The notes under the pieces are model-generated. The model saw only the letters and a program-made list of their open reading frames with translations. It did no database searches and had not been told where the DNA came from. A stretch of 64,000 nt of DNA from Cloacibacillus sp. (GTDB taxonomy: Bacteria > Synergistota > Synergistia > Synergistales > Synergistaceae), in the NCBI GenBank assembly GCA_036655895.1, contig JAVVPF010000006.1, forward strand, positions 621-64,620. Reading direction: 5' to 3'. Positions 32,807 to 41,346 of this stretch are shown one piece after another (position 1 is the stretch's first letter; every line of letters begins with the position of its first letter). The translations under genes were made by a program, and so were the position numbers.

Positions 32807-33610
32807 TCAGGCGAATTTCGGCAGCGCGTCAAGCAGCGCCCTTGTGTAAGGGTGGCGCGGATTTTTCAGCACTTCGCAGGCGGCTCCGCTTTCGCATAGC
32901 TTTCCATCTTTTAGCACTATGATGTTTTTTGCGGCGCGCGCGGCAAGCAGCAGGTCGTGCGTAACGAAGAGCATCGACATTCCCGCCTCCGTGCGGCGGC
33001 GCAGCACCTCTATTATTTCGCCGCGCGTGGAGGCGTCCTGCATTGAGGTTGGCTCGTCGCACAAAAGCAGCTCGGGACAAAGCGTCAGAGCGCGCGCAAG
33101 CTCCACGCGCTGGCGTTGGCCCCCGGAGAGGCCGACGGCGCGTGAGTTCAATATCCTTTCGTCTGTGAGCCCTACCTCGGCAAGCAGCGACTGCGCGCGG
33201 GCTCTGCGTTCTTCTTTTGAGCCGCGCACGTTTGCTATGACCTCCGGCTCCATGACCGCCTCTATTACGGAGAGGCCCGGCGGCAGCGCGCCGTACGGGT
33301 CCTGCGGGACATAGCCGCAGCGCCTGCGCAGAGCTCTTAGCTCGGAGGCTGAAAGTTTCGCCGTGTCGCGGCCAAAGAGGGAGACTGTGCCCGACGTGGG
33401 AGGGATGAGCGCCATCACGGCGCGTAGTAGCGTGCTTTTGCCGCTGCCCGATTCCCCCACGATGGAGAGCGTTCCGCCCCTTTCAAGCATAAGTTCGAGG
33501 CCGTCTATCGCGCGGTTTTTATGTTGTGCGCCTCGTGATTTGAAATCTATCGTAAGTCCTTTTATCTCGACTGCTTTGTTGTTTTCCGTGGTCGCGGTCA
33601 TATCGTTCAC
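32807..33610 (-). CDS. Oligopeptide ABC transporter ATPase, OppF-like
   Basis: ATP-hydrolysing subunit of a peptide-type importer. Walker A GESGSGKST, Q-loop VPQDPYG, signature LSGGQRQRVELARAL, Walker B LLLCDEPTS and H-loop FVTHDL are intact. The C-terminus NPRHPYTRALLDALP is the OppF/DppF-type tail. 267 aa is shorter than typical OppF (about 320). Starts at GTG 33610, directly after the stop of the preceding ATPase gene; ATG 33601 is an alternative. Last gene of the operon. Confidence 0.92.
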   Translation of the reverse strand: MNDMTATTENNKAVEIKGLTIDFKSRGAQHKNRAIDGLELMLERGGTLSIVGESGSGKSTLLRAVMALIPPTSGTVSLFGRDTAKLSASELRALRRRCGYVPQDPYGALPPGLSVIEAVMEPEVIANVRGSKEERRARAQSLLAEVGLTDERILNSRAVGLSGGQRQRVELARALTLCPELLLCDEPTSMQDASTRGEIIEVLRRRTEAGMSMLFVTHDLLLAARAAKNIIVLKDGKLCESGAACEVLKNPRHPYTRALLDALPKFA

Positions 33611-34384
33611 CTACAGCATCGCCGCAATTAGCGCCTTTGTGTGCGCCTCGCGCGGTGCTTCTATTAGATTTTTCGGGCTGCCGTTTTCGATGAGCCGTCC
33701 GTCCTTCATCACAAAGAGCATGTCGCAGGCGGAGGCGGCAAGCGGCAGGTCGTGAGTGACGAGCAGCACTGTGAGCTTTTTGTCGCGGCGCAGGCGCTCC
33801 AGCAGCTTTAATATGGCGGCCTGCGTTATGACGTCGAGCGCCGTCGTAGGCTCGTCCGCCAGCACAAGCTTTGGCGCGCATGAAAGCGCAAGCGCTATGG
33901 CGGCGCGCTGCTTCTGCCCGCCGGATAGTTCGTGCGGGTAGCGTCGCGCCGTATCCGCCGGAAGCTCGACTTCGGCAAGCAGCTCCGTTATCCTCTGACG
34001 CGCGCCGTCGCCCTTTAGTCCGAGATGGACATAAAGCACCTCTTCTATGTGCCGGCCTATGGTTATTACGGGCGTGAATGAGTTCAGCGCCCCCTGCGGT
34101 ATGAGCGCGATCTCACGCTGGCGCAGCCGCGCCAGCGTCTCTTCCGGCGCGTTCAATATGTTGTTTCCCCTGTATGATATTTCGCCGCTTGCGAAAGCGC
34201 CGGACGGAAGCAGCCCAAGCAGCGTCATCAGCACGGTGCTTTTGCCGCTTCCTGATTCTCCGATGAGGGCGCTGAAGGATTCTTCCGGCAGCGAAAGCGA
34301 CAGGTCACGGACGGCACGGCCGTCCGCCGATGAGCTCTCTTTTACGTTGTATGTGACGTTTAGGTTTTTTATTTCTAGCATCAT
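33611..34384 (-). CDS. Oligopeptide ABC transporter ATPase, OppD-like
   Basis: Partner ATPase of the gene above. Walker A GESGSGKST, Q-loop ALIPQGALNSF, signature LSGGQKQRAAIALAL, Walker B LVLADEPTT, H-loop LVTHDLPL. ATG 34384 (or 34381) overlaps the permease stop, ATGATG, so translation is coupled. The frame stays open upstream for 174 codons, but that part only mirrors the permease gene. 257 aa. Confidence 0.92.
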   Translation of the reverse strand: MMLEIKNLNVTYNVKESSSADGRAVRDLSLSLPEESFSALIGESGSGKSTVLMTLLGLLPSGAFASGEISYRGNNILNAPEETLARLRQREIALIPQGALNSFTPVITIGRHIEEVLYVHLGLKGDGARQRITELLAEVELPADTARRYPHELSGGQKQRAAIALALSCAPKLVLADEPTTALDVITQAAILKLLERLRRDKKLTVLLVTHDLPLAASACDMLFVMKDGRLIENGSPKNLIEAPREAHTKALIAAML

Positions 34385-35556
34385 TTCGCGTTGAGCCTCG
34401 GATCTATCTTTTCCTCCAGGAATTTCCCCATATCCAAAAATATGAGACAGACCGCCACTATGCCAAGGCCCGGAGGCAGCAGCAGCCACCACGCGCCCTC
34501 CGTGAAGGCTCCGAAGGAGTGCGCTTCGTGCAGCATTCGCCCCCATGAGATGAGGCGCGGATCGGAGAGGCCAAGGAAGGCAAGCCCGGCCTCGGAGAGT
34601 ATCGCGCCGGGCACTCCAAGCGCGATGTTTGCAAGCAGTATAGGCGCCGTCTCCGGCACGAGGTGGCGCCGCAGGATATAGCCGCGTTTTGCGCCAAGCG
34701 CGCGCAGCGCCTCGACCCACGGGCTCTCGCGCACCGTCAGCACCAGCGCGCGTATAGAGCGCGCCGTCCCCATCCATGAGAATATCGAAAGTATCAGAAC
34801 GAGCTGCCAGAGGCCCTTTCCCCAGATGCCGGCGAGCACCATGAGGATGGGCAGCGTCGGAATGGAAAGAAGGATGTCTACAAACCGCATGATGAGCGCG
34901 TCGCACCAGCCGCCGATGTAGCCCGCCGCCAGTCCGAAGCCCATGCCCAGCAGGCTCGCTATGACAGTCGCCGCAATGCCGATGATGAGCGAGGTGCGTA
35001 TGCCGTAGATGAGCAGCGTAAAGACGTCGCGGCCGCGCTGGTCGGTGCCGAGCAGCCCCTGACGCTCTCCGGGCAGCGAGAGCGAAAGCTCCGCGCGCGC
35101 CGCTCCTGTGACGTGAAGGCTGTACTTGCCGTGCGTGGGGAAGAGGCGCGATGTGCTTTTGCTGACAAGGGGCAGCCCGATGCGTTGTTTGAAGATCATG
35201 TCGCGCCCGTCCATGTTTATCCAGTAGACGGCGCTGCCGCTAAGTTCGTCAAGCAGGATGTCGCCTTCCGGCGTGCGCCAGATTATTTTTACCGCGGCGC
35301 CGCGTGCCGCCTCAATTTTGCCTGTTAGCGAAAATATCGCAGGAGGCCCGCAGTTCCAGTCTATCTCCACGCCGTTCAGCTTCGTTTCGTAGCTTTGCGT
35401 TGCGGAGAGGGTGCCCGCACGCCACCAGACGGGACGCGCAAACGGAGCGCCAGCCAGCGTGTATGGAGACTGCGGGAGTAAAAACGGCCCCGCCGCGCCT
35501 ATGAGCGAGATCAATATGAAGGCTATGACGCTTTTTCTTGTAAGTATCTCCTTCAT
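34381..35556 (-). CDS. OppC-like ABC permease with a large extracytoplasmic insert
   Basis: Membrane subunit of the peptide importer. TM1 at about residues 10-28, then some 130 residues of soluble, partly beta-rich sequence (about 35-165) before the linker LLGTDQRGRDVFTLLIYG that normally follows TM1 closely. The remaining five helices and the EAA loop (EALRALGAKRGYILRRHLVP) are standard. 391 aa against about 300 for most OppC proteins; YejE-type permeases also have an enlarged loop. ATG 35556 overlaps the oppB stop. Confidence 0.9.
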   Translation of the reverse strand: MKEILTRKSVIAFILISLIGAAGPFLLPQSPYTLAGAPFARPVWWRAGTLSATQSYETKLNGVEIDWNCGPPAIFSLTGKIEAARGAAVKIIWRTPEGDILLDELSGSAVYWINMDGRDMIFKQRIGLPLVSKSTSRLFPTHGKYSLHVTGAARAELSLSLPGERQGLLGTDQRGRDVFTLLIYGIRTSLIIGIAATVIASLLGMGFGLAAGYIGGWCDALIMRFVDILLSIPTLPILMVLAGIWGKGLWQLVLILSIFSWMGTARSIRALVLTVRESPWVEALRALGAKRGYILRRHLVPETAPILLANIALGVPGAILSEAGLAFLGLSDPRLISWGRMLHEAHSFGAFTEGAWWLLLPPGLGIVAVCLIFLDMGKFLEEKIDPRLNAK

Positions 35557-36527
35557 TGCATCCGGCCCTCCACGCGCACGCGCGGGTCCACGAGGCCGTA
35601 GGCCGCGTCCGCGAGAAGATTGCAGAAGACGGTGATGAGCGCAAGCAGATAAAAGGCCGCGCCCGCGCTGGGGTAGTCGTTTCCAGATACCGCGTCAAGC
35701 AGGAAGGTGCCGACGCCGTGCAGCGAAAAGACGGATTCCGTGATGACCGCGCCAGAGACGAGGCCTGGTACGGACATCAGCAGTATCGTAAGTATCGGCG
35801 GCAGGATGGTGCGGAAGGCGTGCCAGACGACGCGGCTTTTTGAAAGCCCGCGGGCGCGAGCCATCAGCGCGAAATCTTCGTTGAGCGCGCGCACCATGAG
35901 GTTGCGCACGTAGAGCGCCCAGCCGCCGAAGCCCATCAGCGCAAGCGACAGCACAGGCAGCGCCATGTGCCAGCCGTAGTCGGCTATCACGTTCAGGAAG
36001 CCCTGCGGAGAGGGCACGGAGAGCGTGCCGCGCAGCGGGAAAATAGGCAGCGCCTTCGCGAATATCATAAGCAGCACGAGCTGCACGAAAAAGCTTGGGA
36101 ACGACGAGGTGACGGCGCTTGCGCGCAGCACGATGCGCTCCGCGAGCTTTCCGCGGTCAATCGCCGCCTTGATGCCAAGCCATATTCCAAGCGCCGCGGA
36201 AATTATCATAGAGCTTACGGTGAGAGTCAGCGTCACGGGCAGACGCGAAAGAAGCTCGTCCCAGACAGGCTTTCTGCTGAGGAATGAAAGCCCGAACTGG
36301 AAGGTGAGCATCTGGCGCAGATAGAGCGCGAACTGTTCCCACATGGGCTTGTCAAGCCCGTATATGGCGCGCAGGTTGGCCTTCGCCTCAGGCGAGAACG
36401 ACGGGTCTATTATTGTGCTTACGGCGTCTCCCGGCATGAGCCGGAAGAGGACGAAATTCAGCACAAGCACCGCGGCGAGCACTACGACGGATGAAAGCGC
36501 GCGTTTTAAAAGCCACCGCCAGCTCAT
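35553..36527 (-). CDS. OppB-like ABC permease
   Basis: Six-helix membrane subunit. N-terminal FRLMPGD motif after TM1, YGLDKPMWEQFALYLRQML, and the EAA loop MARARGLSKSRVVWHAFR are all OppB/DppB hallmarks. 324 aa, usual size. Starts within the last bases of the binding-protein gene (ATGA overlap) and ends in an ATGA overlap with oppC. Confidence 0.93.
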   Translation of the reverse strand: MSWRWLLKRALSSVVVLAAVLVLNFVLFRLMPGDAVSTIIDPSFSPEAKANLRAIYGLDKPMWEQFALYLRQMLTFQFGLSFLSRKPVWDELLSRLPVTLTLTVSSMIISAALGIWLGIKAAIDRGKLAERIVLRASAVTSSFPSFFVQLVLLMIFAKALPIFPLRGTLSVPSPQGFLNVIADYGWHMALPVLSLALMGFGGWALYVRNLMVRALNEDFALMARARGLSKSRVVWHAFRTILPPILTILLMSVPGLVSGAVITESVFSLHGVGTFLLDAVSGNDYPSAGAAFYLLALITVFCNLLADAAYGLVDPRVRVEGRMQ

Positions 36528-38197
36528 TTCGCGCCGCCTTTTAACATTCTAAAATTGGGGTTGCGCCGCATTATCACATATTCGCCGGGCTTGTAATTTT
36601 TCAGCGTGAACGGGCCGCTGCCGACCAGGCCGTATGGGCCGTATTTTTCTTTTTTATCGAGCGGGTCCCAGTTCTGCCAATCCTTTATTTTGTCCACGAC
36701 CTTTTTGGGAAGGCAGGGAAGCCCCGCGATGTTGTCGAGATACCAGTAGCTCACGCCGTTCATCGAGACGCGCAGCGTAAGGTCGTCCGGGGCGTCTATG
36801 CTTTTTATATTTTTTACCGCGTCAAAGAAGCGAGGTATCTTGTTTTTTTGCAGGAACTCCGCCGTCGCTTTTATGTCGCGCGCGGAAAGGCGGCTTCCGT
36901 CGCTCCATTTAAGGCCCTTTTTTATCTTAAAGACGAGCTCCGTATGAGCGCCCGCCTTGTCGTTTATCGTGCGCACCTGCCACGACTCCGCGATGGCCGG
37001 CATGTTTTCAAGCGTATACGGGTCGACGCCGGTCATAGATTCGTAGATCATCCCAAGCACCTGCCACGAATAGGCGGACGAGGCGGAGAATGGGTTCAGA
37101 TTGCGCGGCTCTTCCGGCAGCAGCATCACGAGCGGGCGCATTTTTCCGTCGCGCGGCTCCGCCGTAAGCAGCGTCCAGACGTTGTCCGCCGTCATCTTAT
37201 CTGTGGAAAAGATATTCTTCCATTTTTTTGAGACGGCGGAGACGGAGATGCGGCTGTAGATGGGCACGGTCGGCATCAATTCAAGCAGCAGCCGCTGCGC
37301 GCGAGCCGACGCCGCCTGCGCCGCCGCCTTGTCCGGCGCGAAACGCAGCGCGGAAAGAGAGGCGTCCAGCCGCTTGTCTTTTATGCCGCTTACGTTGTAG
37401 CCGCCCTCGACGCTCATTGAGCTGTGATAAAAGCTGAAAAGGGAATCAGGGTCGCGGCCCATGCTCCACGCAAGCACCGCCATTGAAAAATCCTTCCTGT
37501 CGAGGCGCGATATGAGCGCGGAAAAATCTATAGGGTCCACCTCGACCGGAAAGCCTACGGCGCGCAGAGAGTCCGCGATAAGCTCTGCAAGCTCCGCCGT
37601 AGTAGGCGCTACGCGCGCCATAGGCGTCATAAGCTTCATGGGCGCGAGCGCATGGCCGTTTGGCGCGACAAGCGTTCCCGCGATGTCCCATCTGTAGCCT
37701 TTTTTCTTGAGCAGCGCGCGCGCCGCCTGAGGGTCGTATATGTCCTCCGTGCTGTTTGGCAGCGCCCACGGAGAAACGGGAGGAAGCCACGAATTGATAG
37801 GTTCGCAGTAGCCGGAGAAGATCATGCGCACGATGCTGTTTCTGTCTATCGACATCGCGGCGGCGCGGCGCAGATCCTTGTCCTTCCACGGTATCGACGC
37901 GTCGTTCAAAATCAGGAAAAAGGCGTGCATACCCCGCGCAAGCGAGAGTTCTATGTTTTTATTCGTGCTCAGCCGGTCTATGTCGGAGGGGCGCGCGATG
38001 TCGCTCAAAATGTCGAGTTCTCCGGCCTCCGCCGCCATTATCTGCGCGTCGGGGTTTGCTATTATGAGCATGGCGACCTCTTCTATCTTCGGGCCGCGGA
38101 CTGCGTTCAGGTCAAGCTTCGCGGCGCGGCCCGCGCCGGCGGCCGCTAAAATAAAAATTATGGCAATGATGGGCACATATAGTTTTGCAAATTTCAC
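36524..38197 (-). CDS. Circularly permuted OppA/DppA-type solute-binding protein
   Basis: Periplasmic substrate receptor of the neighbouring importer, family SBP_bac_5, but in swapped order. After a signal peptide (cleavage near GRA-AKL, residue ~26), residues ~28-346 match the second half of the family: EEVAMLIIANPDAQIMAAEAG, LRRAAAMSIDRNSIVRMIFSG, YDPQAARALLKKKGY. Residues ~347-557 match the first half: MLLPEEPRNLNPF, YESMTGVDPYTLENMPAIAESW, FKIKKGLKWSDGSRLSARDIKA, GSGPFTLKNYKPGEYVIMRRNP, and then the protein stops where the normal order would begin the second half. The length (557 aa) is that of one complete protein. GTG 38197 start; it overlaps oppB by 4 bases. Confidence 0.88.
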   Translation of the reverse strand: MKFAKLYVPIIAIIFILAAAGAGRAAKLDLNAVRGPKIEEVAMLIIANPDAQIMAAEAGELDILSDIARPSDIDRLSTNKNIELSLARGMHAFFLILNDASIPWKDKDLRRAAAMSIDRNSIVRMIFSGYCEPINSWLPPVSPWALPNSTEDIYDPQAARALLKKKGYRWDIAGTLVAPNGHALAPMKLMTPMARVAPTTAELAELIADSLRAVGFPVEVDPIDFSALISRLDRKDFSMAVLAWSMGRDPDSLFSFYHSSMSVEGGYNVSGIKDKRLDASLSALRFAPDKAAAQAASARAQRLLLELMPTVPIYSRISVSAVSKKWKNIFSTDKMTADNVWTLLTAEPRDGKMRPLVMLLPEEPRNLNPFSASSAYSWQVLGMIYESMTGVDPYTLENMPAIAESWQVRTINDKAGAHTELVFKIKKGLKWSDGSRLSARDIKATAEFLQKNKIPRFFDAVKNIKSIDAPDDLTLRVSMNGVSYWYLDNIAGLPCLPKKVVDKIKDWQNWDPLDKKEKYGPYGLVGSGPFTLKNYKPGEYVIMRRNPNFRMLKGGAK

Positions 38198-38208: not shown

Positions 38209-38784
38209 TTACTCCTTTGAACTTTTTACGACGATCTCGCGTCCCGGGATCGGCCTGCCCGTCACAAGCTGCAAAATCAGCCGTCCGGCGAGCACCCCCG
38301 TCTCGAATGTCGGTTCGTCGGAGCTCTCCTCCATTGTGACGGAGCAGCAGTCCGGCGCTTTGAATCCGAAGGTGACGGCGGGGACGTTCAGCTCGTCCGG
38401 GAAACTTGCGGCATCACACCAGACTATACCCTCGGCGTGTCGCTCGTAAAGGGAACTTCTTACATTTTTTGCACGCAGGGGATTGTTTTGCGTCGATTTC
38501 AGTAAAATTTCATAGGAAGAGTTTGAAAAGGCGCGGTCAAGCCCCGCGAGAAAGGCGCCGAGCCACGGCCTGTTCAGGTCGCCTACGACGACGCCGACCA
38601 GCCCGCTTTTATGCGTGGAGAGGCTGCGAGCGCTGCGGTCGAGCCTGTAATCCAGCGCCCGCACGCTCTCCATCACCTTTATTTTCGTCTTTTCGGAAAT
38701 TCTGTGGTCGCCGCGCAGCACCCTGCTGACAGTAGCCTTGTCAACGCCGGCGCGCTCCGCGACCTCCTGCATAGTGACCTTCAT
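38209..38784 (-). CDS. LacI-family regulator with an internal deletion
   Basis: Residues 1-60 form a complete LacI headpiece (TMQEVAERAGVDKATVSRVL, hinge YRLDRSARSLSTHKS). Residues 61-140 match the first N-subdomain segment (GLVGVVVGDLNRPWLGAFLAG, GIVWCDA, VPAVTFGF). The chain then jumps to the very C-terminal segment (ETGVLAGRLILQLVTGRPIPGREIVVKSS). About 140 residues normally forming the C-subdomain are missing: 191 aa against about 330. It sits 11 bases before the binding-protein gene and has a LacI-type operator at its own start, so it is probably the local, autoregulated repressor. Confidence 0.83.
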   Translation of the reverse strand: MKVTMQEVAERAGVDKATVSRVLRGDHRISEKTKIKVMESVRALDYRLDRSARSLSTHKSGLVGVVVGDLNRPWLGAFLAGLDRAFSNSSYEILLKSTQNNPLRAKNVRSSLYERHAEGIVWCDAASFPDELNVPAVTFGFKAPDCCSVTMEESSDEPTFETGVLAGRLILQLVTGRPIPGREIVVKSSKE

Positions 38785-39437: not shown

Positions 39438-40172
39438 TTATCGCCAGCGTGACAGGAATTTGGCGTACTCTGTGTCGTCTGTCAGATGGCGGATGGAGTG
39501 CAGAAAAGAACGCCCGCCGTCCGCGGGTATTTCCTGCGTCAGGCAGCGCACTCGCGTTTTGGGGATGGGGTGGATATATTCTCCCTCCACAAAATGCGGC
39601 GCCATCTCCATCGGCACCGCCTCCGGCACAGTGTCGAGCGCCCAGCTGAAATAGACGGTGTGGTTCGTGTGGTCGTTTACGTCGAGGTCCTGCCAGCGCA
39701 CCTTCCACGTCTCTTCGATGTCGGGCGCGTCAAGCTCCTCTATCTTTGGATCCTGCGGCAGCGCGTCGGATATTTTTCCAAAAAGCGGAGCCATAAGCTC
39801 GCACCTGTCAAGCCGAATCGGGCGCTGTTTTTCAATGTCTATGAGCACCCACCATGTGTAGGCCGAGCCGAGGAATTTCCCCTGCGCGTCCCACAGCTTG
39901 AAACTTCTCAAAGAAAAGAGGTTGCGGTACGTCTCCGCGTAGGTTTTTATCCTGATGGCGCCGCTTTCCTTTGTGGGGCAGCTTTCAAGGTCCACGCGGT
40001 ATTTCCGCAGCACCCACGTCATGTTGTGCGCAAGCGTCTGGCGCACGGAAAGCCCGTACTTTGAGGCGTCAATGTCGGCCATCTGCTGGAACATCTCCAG
40101 CAGCACGGAGAATTTCACGCGCCCGCGCGGGTCGATGCCGCTGAACGGGAGCGTGTTTTCAAGCTCAGTCAT
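39438..40172 (-). CDS. Acyl-ACP thioesterase (FatA/FatB-like, double hotdog)
   Basis: Hydrolyses acyl-ACP to free fatty acid, ending chain growth. Two hotdog domains: the first with RVKFSVLLEMFQQMADIDA and TWVLRKYRV, the second with the catalytic segment RWQDLDVNDHTNHTVYFSW (conserved Asn and His). 244 aa, usual for bacterial members. ATG 40172 overlaps the preceding ligase gene by 8 bases, so the two are coupled. The role of free fatty-acid release in this cell is unknown. Confidence 0.88.
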   Translation of the reverse strand: MTELENTLPFSGIDPRGRVKFSVLLEMFQQMADIDASKYGLSVRQTLAHNMTWVLRKYRVDLESCPTKESGAIRIKTYAETYRNLFSLRSFKLWDAQGKFLGSAYTWWVLIDIEKQRPIRLDRCELMAPLFGKISDALPQDPKIEELDAPDIEETWKVRWQDLDVNDHTNHTVYFSWALDTVPEAVPMEMAPHFVEGEYIHPIPKTRVRCLTQEIPADGGRSFLHSIRHLTDDTEYAKFLSRWR

Positions 40173-41346
40173 CGAGGTAGTTGTCGAAATAGCCCTGTAT
40201 GTATATTACGGGCGTGCCCTTGTCGCCGGAGCCGGAGGTGAGGTCGCAGAGCGAGCCTATGAGGTCGGTCAGGCGGCGCGGCGTCGTGCCGAGCGTCGAA
40301 TGGCCGAAACGGTCGAGCGCGCCTTTTGCGCGTATCGCCTCTTTGACGGCCTCTTCGGGATTCCCGCCGCTTGCGTTGTCCGCTACGTATTTTAATTTGA
40401 TTTCTTTGGGCATTCCGCTTAGGCCGTCGGTGAAGCCAGGCGAGACTACAGGGTCCGCCAGCTCCCATATACCGCATACCGGGTCTTTGAAGGCGCCGTC
40501 TCCGTAGACGAGCACCTCCGTATCTATTCCCGAGCATTTTTTCAGCTCGTCCTTGAGCTTGTTGACGAAGGCTGTGCAGTCGCGCGGGAAGAGTTTCACG
40601 GAATTGTCGTTTGTGTAGTTTGAGCCGAGCAGGCCGTAGTTTTCGTTCCAGCCCATGCCGGGACGGTGCGGCTCGCTGCATATCTGGTCCATTGTGACGA
40701 CTTTTTTCGCTCCGCCCTTTTCCAGTATGTCGCGGTGTATCGTGCGCGCGTGGATGCTGGCCACGATCACTTGATCTGCGAACTTCAGCGCGGAGAGCGG
40801 GTTGTTTGAGAAATGGACGCTGACGCGCTCCGGCGCGATGCTTTTGTATAGCTGTATGTAGTCCACGCCCGTGAAGGGGTGCTTGTATTCTCCGAAGACC
40901 TCATAATATTCTTTTTCATCAAAGCATTCGCCGGAGAGATTTTTGTTGTTCAAGTAGTAGTTCATCGGCTCGATTATCTGGTTGCCCACTTCGTCCGACG
41001 GATAGGTGAGCACAACGTGCACGCGGCCCTTTATGCCGGCCACCATGCCGCGCAATAGCTGATGAAAGCGGTTGCGCGAAAGTATGGGGCAGATGACGGC
41101 TACGTCCCCATCGGGGAATTTTGCGGCGACGTCGTTTGAAATGTCCGCAAGCGTGACATAGTTGCCCTGTGAACGCGCCACGAGAGACTCTGTAACGCCT
41201 ATGACGTCTCCGTTGCGCATCTCAAATTTATCGCGCGGCGACTGAGCCGCCTTCACTATGCTTTCTGTGATTATTTTTATTATGTCGTCTCCCTGTGTGA
41301 CGACCGGCAGGCGAATGCCTCTGGAAACTGCGCCAACGTAACGCAT
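40165..41346 (-). CDS. CofE-like coenzyme F420-0:gamma-glutamyl ligase family protein
   Basis: 393 aa. N-terminal GIRLPVVTQGDDIIKIITES and NGDVIGVTESLVARSQGN resemble the CofE fold, which adds glutamates to F420-0. The C-terminal third (TSGSGDKGTPVIYIQGYFD) is also typical of the long bacterial subgroup. No F420 biosynthesis or F420-dependent enzyme is seen nearby, and this subgroup occurs in bacteria not known to make F420, so the substrate is open. AGAGGAACG before ATG 41346. Overlaps the thioesterase gene. Confidence 0.78.
   Translation of the reverse strand: MRYVGAVSRGIRLPVVTQGDDIIKIITESIVKAAQSPRDKFEMRNGDVIGVTESLVARSQGNYVTLADISNDVAAKFPDGDVAVICPILSRNRFHQLLRGMVAGIKGRVHVVLTYPSDEVGNQIIEPMNYYLNNKNLSGECFDEKEYYEVFGEYKHPFTGVDYIQLYKSIAPERVSVHFSNNPLSALKFADQVIVASIHARTIHRDILEKGGAKKVVTMDQICSEPHRPGMGWNENYGLLGSNYTNDNSVKLFPRDCTAFVNKLKDELKKCSGIDTEVLVYGDGAFKDPVCGIWELADPVVSPGFTDGLSGMPKEIKLKYVADNASGGNPEEAVKEAIRAKGALDRFGHSTLGTTPRRLTDLIGSLCDLTSGSGDKGTPVIYIQGYFDNYLDD

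Follow-up and report, generated by a model that had tools for sequence, protein, structure and literature searches.

A circularly permuted cluster C substrate-binding protein in a conserved Opp/Dpp-type importer operon of Synergistota

Receptors that nature has circularly permuted as a whole are, to our knowledge, rare. The substrate-binding proteins (SBPs) of cluster C, such as DppA, OppA, NikA and AppA, have a canonical chain order; three segments of the chain make up their domain I, with domains II and III between them (PMC11192437), and the N- and C-termini of the oligopeptide-binding proteins lie in close proximity within this domain (PMC10924461), in keeping with the suggestion, made in the preliminary description of the locus, that native termini of this family could be joined. 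A natural and conserved permuted SBP of an ABC importer has been described in Treponema, namely TpMglB-2 (Tp0684), designated "Type Ic / Cluster Bc"; its permutation was demonstrated by the crystal structure, and ligand binding and closure are retained (PMC4990184). TpMglB-2 is a sugar binder of cluster B (type I), in which about 100 residues have been moved and the chain makes an extra hinge crossing (PMC4990184). It is the one permuted ABC binding protein that we found described in the open-access literature, where no permuted member of cluster C was found; the earlier statement that no permuted member had been described thus stands for cluster C, but not for ABC binding proteins of another cluster. 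The protein analyzed here, encoded in a 64,000-nucleotide stretch of a Cloacibacillus genome (the window), is a real and conserved permuted SBP, probably of a kind undescribed in its cluster. It differs from TpMglB-2 in belonging to cluster C and in being cut inside domain I, with about 200 residues moved.

The SBP gene occupies positions 36524-38197 of the minus strand and encodes 557 amino acids from a GTG start codon, as originally read. In a Pfam profile search the SBP_bac_5 family (PF00496) matched the open reading frame in two pieces of swapped order, with profile positions 145-360 coming first (residues 35-257) and positions 3-141 coming last (residues about 368-550), together scoring 213 bits over the two stretches against a gathering threshold of 32.4. 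Each part of the profile is present once and the total length is that of one protein, as had been noted from the letters alone; PF00496 is the sole matching family, which separates the protein from the cluster B (type I) binders. The canonical linear order of the SBP_bac_5 segments is not found in this protein and, since profile positions 145-360 precede 3-141, it was filed as a permuted variant rather than as an ordinary member of the family. The chain begins with a putative Sec-type signal peptide (residues 1-26, KFAK...AGAGRAA, positions 38120..38197, minus strand), read from the sequence, and a hydrophobic N-terminal leader is present in nearly all the permuted relatives in the alignment. 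Whereas in cluster C SBPs of canonical order the signal peptide is not followed by the C-terminal half, here it directly precedes it: residues 27-338 (37184..38119, minus strand) correspond to PF00496 positions 145-360 and DppA positions 237-517 and comprise the rest of domain I, domain III and the last strands of domain I. A linker follows, in which the former C- and N-termini are joined; alignment and the rotation scan described below place it approximately at residues 339-352 (about 37142..37183, minus strand), a segment that includes the junction first proposed near residue 347 (base 37160). The canonical N-terminal half comes last (residues 353-557, 36527..37141, minus strand), matching PF00496 positions 3-141 and OppA positions 84-236, with the motifs PEEPRNLNPF ... 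GSGPF ... RNPNF in this order. The new termini fall inside a single loop, as had been expected, between RNPNF and GPKIEEV, which in the OppA precursor lies between residues 236 and 244.

Rotation restores the canonical order. When residues 351-557 were moved to the front, PF00496 gave a single match over profile positions 3-360 with 224.2 bits, and the rotated protein could be aligned in one piece, from end to end, with proteins of solved structure such as Lmo0135, placing it in the same family as the canonical cluster C proteins. E. coli DppA aligned with the unrotated protein as two swapped BLAST pieces (72.0 and 36.6 bits) and with the rotated one as a single alignment of 91.3 bits over 29-517; OppA and NikA behaved in the same way, being colinear once the SBP was rotated. 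When every cut point was scored against 10 canonical SBPs, six permuted proteins had their best cut at 350-380 and four canonical controls had theirs at about 0, and the score of the window protein rose from 177.7 to 256.6 at its best cut. The scan was scored by Smith-Waterman alignment, the best single HMMER domain being uninformative for most sequences because the alignment is split into two envelopes; the optimum is broad, as little of the score comes from the linker and the ends. Direct and rotated alignments having thus been compared, as the preliminary description had proposed, the rotated one is clearly better, and the circular permutation that it had put forward is borne out by the profile order, the rotation scan, the end-to-end alignments and the trees of both halves discussed below. 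The swapped order also has a practical consequence for annotation, as profile searches see such a protein as two broken matches, and permuted SBPs may be modeled wrongly or lost in alignment or AlphaFold pipelines that take colinearity for granted. An AlphaFold2 model of the permuted SBP, built from 7 sequences only, had a pLDDT of 45.8 and a pTM of 0.32; at such a pLDDT its Foldseek matches are not meaningful and were disregarded. From the rotated alignments, we infer that the mature protein would adopt the cluster C fold of an ordinary two-lobed trap.

The permuted SBP is the only binding protein of a complete operon, as first described, and this operon has the type and subunit set of the canonical cluster C systems; it encodes the parts of an Opp/Dpp-type ABC importer, namely one SBP, two permeases of the BPD_transp_1 family and two ATPases. 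All the genes lie on the minus strand: the OppB-type permease (35553..36527), with a 4-base overlap at the SBP stop codon; the OppC-type permease of 391 amino acids, identified by a profile match and carrying an extracytoplasmic insert (34381..35556); the OppD-type ATPase (33611..34390), whose start lies near MMLEIKNL although the listed reading frame extends further upstream; and the OppF-type ATPase, also matched by profile (32807..33610). Among the loci read, the order permuted SBP-OppB-OppC-OppD-OppF on one strand recurs wherever the contig is long enough, with few exceptions. One of these is a locus of genome G143 (L072), with approximately 3 kb between OppB and OppC; another is a locus of genome G152 (L071, 4339-), where on the stretch read the permuted SBP has no adjacent OppB-F, and after it come a relative of the gene at 40165-41346 of the window and an ATPase relative. 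As a clue to the substrate, no conserved neighbors were found beyond the five genes, most of the listed clusters being antisense reading frames. By analogy with such importers, a periplasmic solute would be bound by the SBP, whose docking on OppB/OppC would then drive uptake by OppD/OppF. The window genome encodes one further SBP_bac_5 protein, of canonical order.

The nearest relatives of the permuted operon have the canonical order. In the trees of the rotated SBP and of the concatenated OppB-C-D-F proteins, the permuted operon stands beside a clade of canonical-order operons with a support of 100 at the joining node; these sister operons come from Synergistota (G041 and G058, loci L117 and L118), a Streptomyces plasmid (L115), a Cytobacillus plasmid (L112) and a Halomarina plasmid (L116), and they differ in having an unpermuted SBP and an OppC of 291-348 amino acids that lacks the insert. 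Since both trees share this sister clade, the pattern is best explained by a single permutation in a shared ancestor. Very probably this ancestor belonged to Synergistota, and its descendants have kept the permuted SBP gene since. The usual route to a circular permutation is tandem duplication, fusion and trimming, and the gene may have originated in this way, although no intermediate of this route was seen. In such an event the former N- and C-termini would have been joined in domain I by the linker of about 14 residues, new termini would have been opened in a surface loop of the same domain, after RNPNF and before GPKIEEV, and the signal peptide would have been placed before the former C-terminal half. 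Given the layout of domain I and the closeness of its termini, domains II and III both stay intact when the old ends are joined and the middle segment is opened; with both domains contiguous, the motion of the trap should be unchanged. The permutation is ancient, spans ten families of one phylum and is maintained beside its own permeases; the presence of a canonical-order sister operon in the same phylum provides a natural experiment, one importer being available in a permuted and an unpermuted version whose folding, export, docking and release of substrate can be compared.

The permuted SBP is accompanied by a permease with an insert. The cognate OppC has about 390 amino acids and, in all 37 sequences aligned, an extracytoplasmic insert of about 110 amino acids, so that the distance from the first membrane segment to LLGTDQRGRDV is about 138 residues, against 25-31 in E. 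coli OppC, DppC and NikC. With its edges the insert covers residues 37-164 (35065..35448, minus strand) and is predicted to be an all-beta domain (AlphaFold2, pLDDT 79, pTM 0.71); no match better than chance was found in the PDB by sequence, and by fold only loose beta-sandwich likenesses were obtained, with TM scores of about 0.45 or less and none at E <= 0.001. In nine genomes, the similarity of the OppC paralogues to the cognate OppC begins only at about residue 144-169. Lying on the same side of the membrane as the SBP, the insert could help to dock or hold it. It is an evenly balanced question whether, on the contrary, the permutation was neutral and fixed by chance once, the insert being an independent and unrelated change. 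A permutation within one domain should keep the fold and the trap motion, which agrees with neutrality. Moreover, another OppC of the window genome, partner of a canonical SBP (L124 3724-5001, G000 C9), carries a different, unrelated insert of about 115 amino acids at the same extracytoplasmic loop; this loop evidently tolerates insertions, and an insertion there is not in itself unusual. Independence is, however, made less attractive by the absence of the specific insert from the paralogues examined and from the sister operons, and by its co-occurrence with the permuted SBP in 102 genomes (SBP only in 6, OppC only in 2); this co-occurrence is explained equally by co-inheritance, as both genes belong to one operon, and is no proof of interaction. 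An unrelated insert of about 115 amino acids is likewise found at this loop in an OppC of genome G015 (L131 8845-10131), again in an operon with a canonical SBP.

A different origin would be a chimera, in which halves from two different SBP genes were fused in an unusual order. When the two halves were analyzed in separate trees, the nearest canonical relatives of the N-terminal half were those of Cytobacillus and Halomarina and those of the C-terminal half the G041 operon, Streptomyces and Cytobacillus, a difference that would suit two parents, as would the lack of duplication by-products. Both halves nevertheless stand beside the same small canonical group, joined to it at a node with a support of 100; the permeases and ATPases take this position too, and every part of the SBP is present exactly once. 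As the halves join members of the same group, a permutation from one parent is favored, and the chimera appears improbable.

With regard to the substrate, residue D436 of E. coli DppA (mature D408) binds the amino group of the dipeptide and contacts the scoop loop of DppB (PMC12136057). This residue and OppA mature D419 align to residue 247 of the permuted SBP, within an otherwise invariant AWxxxRxPD motif, where 64 of 64 permuted proteins have G, S or T. A second alignment places a gap opposite D436; in neither alignment is there an Asp within the four residues after W244, and the stretch between W244 and R248 holds no conserved acid. The Asp at W+3 is also absent from those Cytobacillus, G041 and Streptomyces sister proteins that could be read, so its loss probably predates the permutation, and it is missing from some canonical members as well. 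The absence of the amine-binding Asp argues against ordinary peptide anchoring of the DppA/OppA style; it is therefore doubtful that peptides are taken up in that way, and the word "oligopeptide" stands here for the name of the family only. The missing Asp would also suit an SBP that no longer takes part in transport but serves as a receptor or chaperone, as would the G152 locus with its SBP apart from OppB-F; this is a very unlikely alternative in view of the strict linkage to a complete OppBCDF in nearly all the other loci and of the overlap between the SBP and OppB reading frames. We tentatively propose the term "cluster Cc" for what may, though this is less likely than not, be an ancient permuted cluster C SBP that co-evolved with a permease bearing a new extracytoplasmic beta domain, the importer having altered docking and probably a non-standard substrate.

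At a threshold of E <= 1e-40, the permuted SBP is present in 108 of 188 Synergistota genomes, belonging to 46 of 63 genera and 10 families, nearly always as one copy per genome. Full-length copies are colinear with the window protein, at 42-74% identity; in a few genomes all that was found of the gene was fragments at the ends of contigs or a copy with a broken frame. In 76 aligned sequences the junction is colinear and of near-constant length with few indels (consensus xxADNxWxLLxxEPxxGKxRPLxxxLxEEPRxLNP). The window genome is a 160-contig draft, but an artefact of assembly or annotation, or decay of the gene, is practically excluded and was rejected, as the swapped order is conserved across 108 genomes, among them the finished single-contig G015, G029, G049 and G057, in strongly conserved open frames of 540-600 amino acids, which also answers the objection of an assembly error raised at the outset. 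No SBP_bac_5 other than the permuted protein was found in G001 and G045. At the same threshold it was not found in 80 of the 188 genomes, indicating that it is dispensable or replaceable, or hidden in some by incomplete assembly. Our evidence on distribution covers Synergistota, other phyla being barely sampled: a scan of genome contigs by exact octapeptides retrieved 6 Synergistota loci of the more than 100 existing and thus says little on other phyla, and a tblastn search of 72,556 plasmids yielded, among the matches listed, only weak two-piece matches (25-28% identity); those retrieved and aligned had the canonical order. Two copies, in G158 C113 and G161 C1, have one in-frame stop or frame break and are possibly decaying genes or sequencing errors.

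Upstream of the operon, a gene for a short LacI-type regulator of 191 amino acids (38209..38784, minus strand) ends 11 bases before the SBP start, a neighbor kept in part of the Synergistaceae only. It consists of the DNA-binding domain and, of the 281 positions in the profile of the sugar-binding domain, only the first 70 or so. Related Synergistaceae have similarly short versions, of 194-211 amino acids, beside the same operon, and the second lobe of this regulator therefore seems to have been lost.
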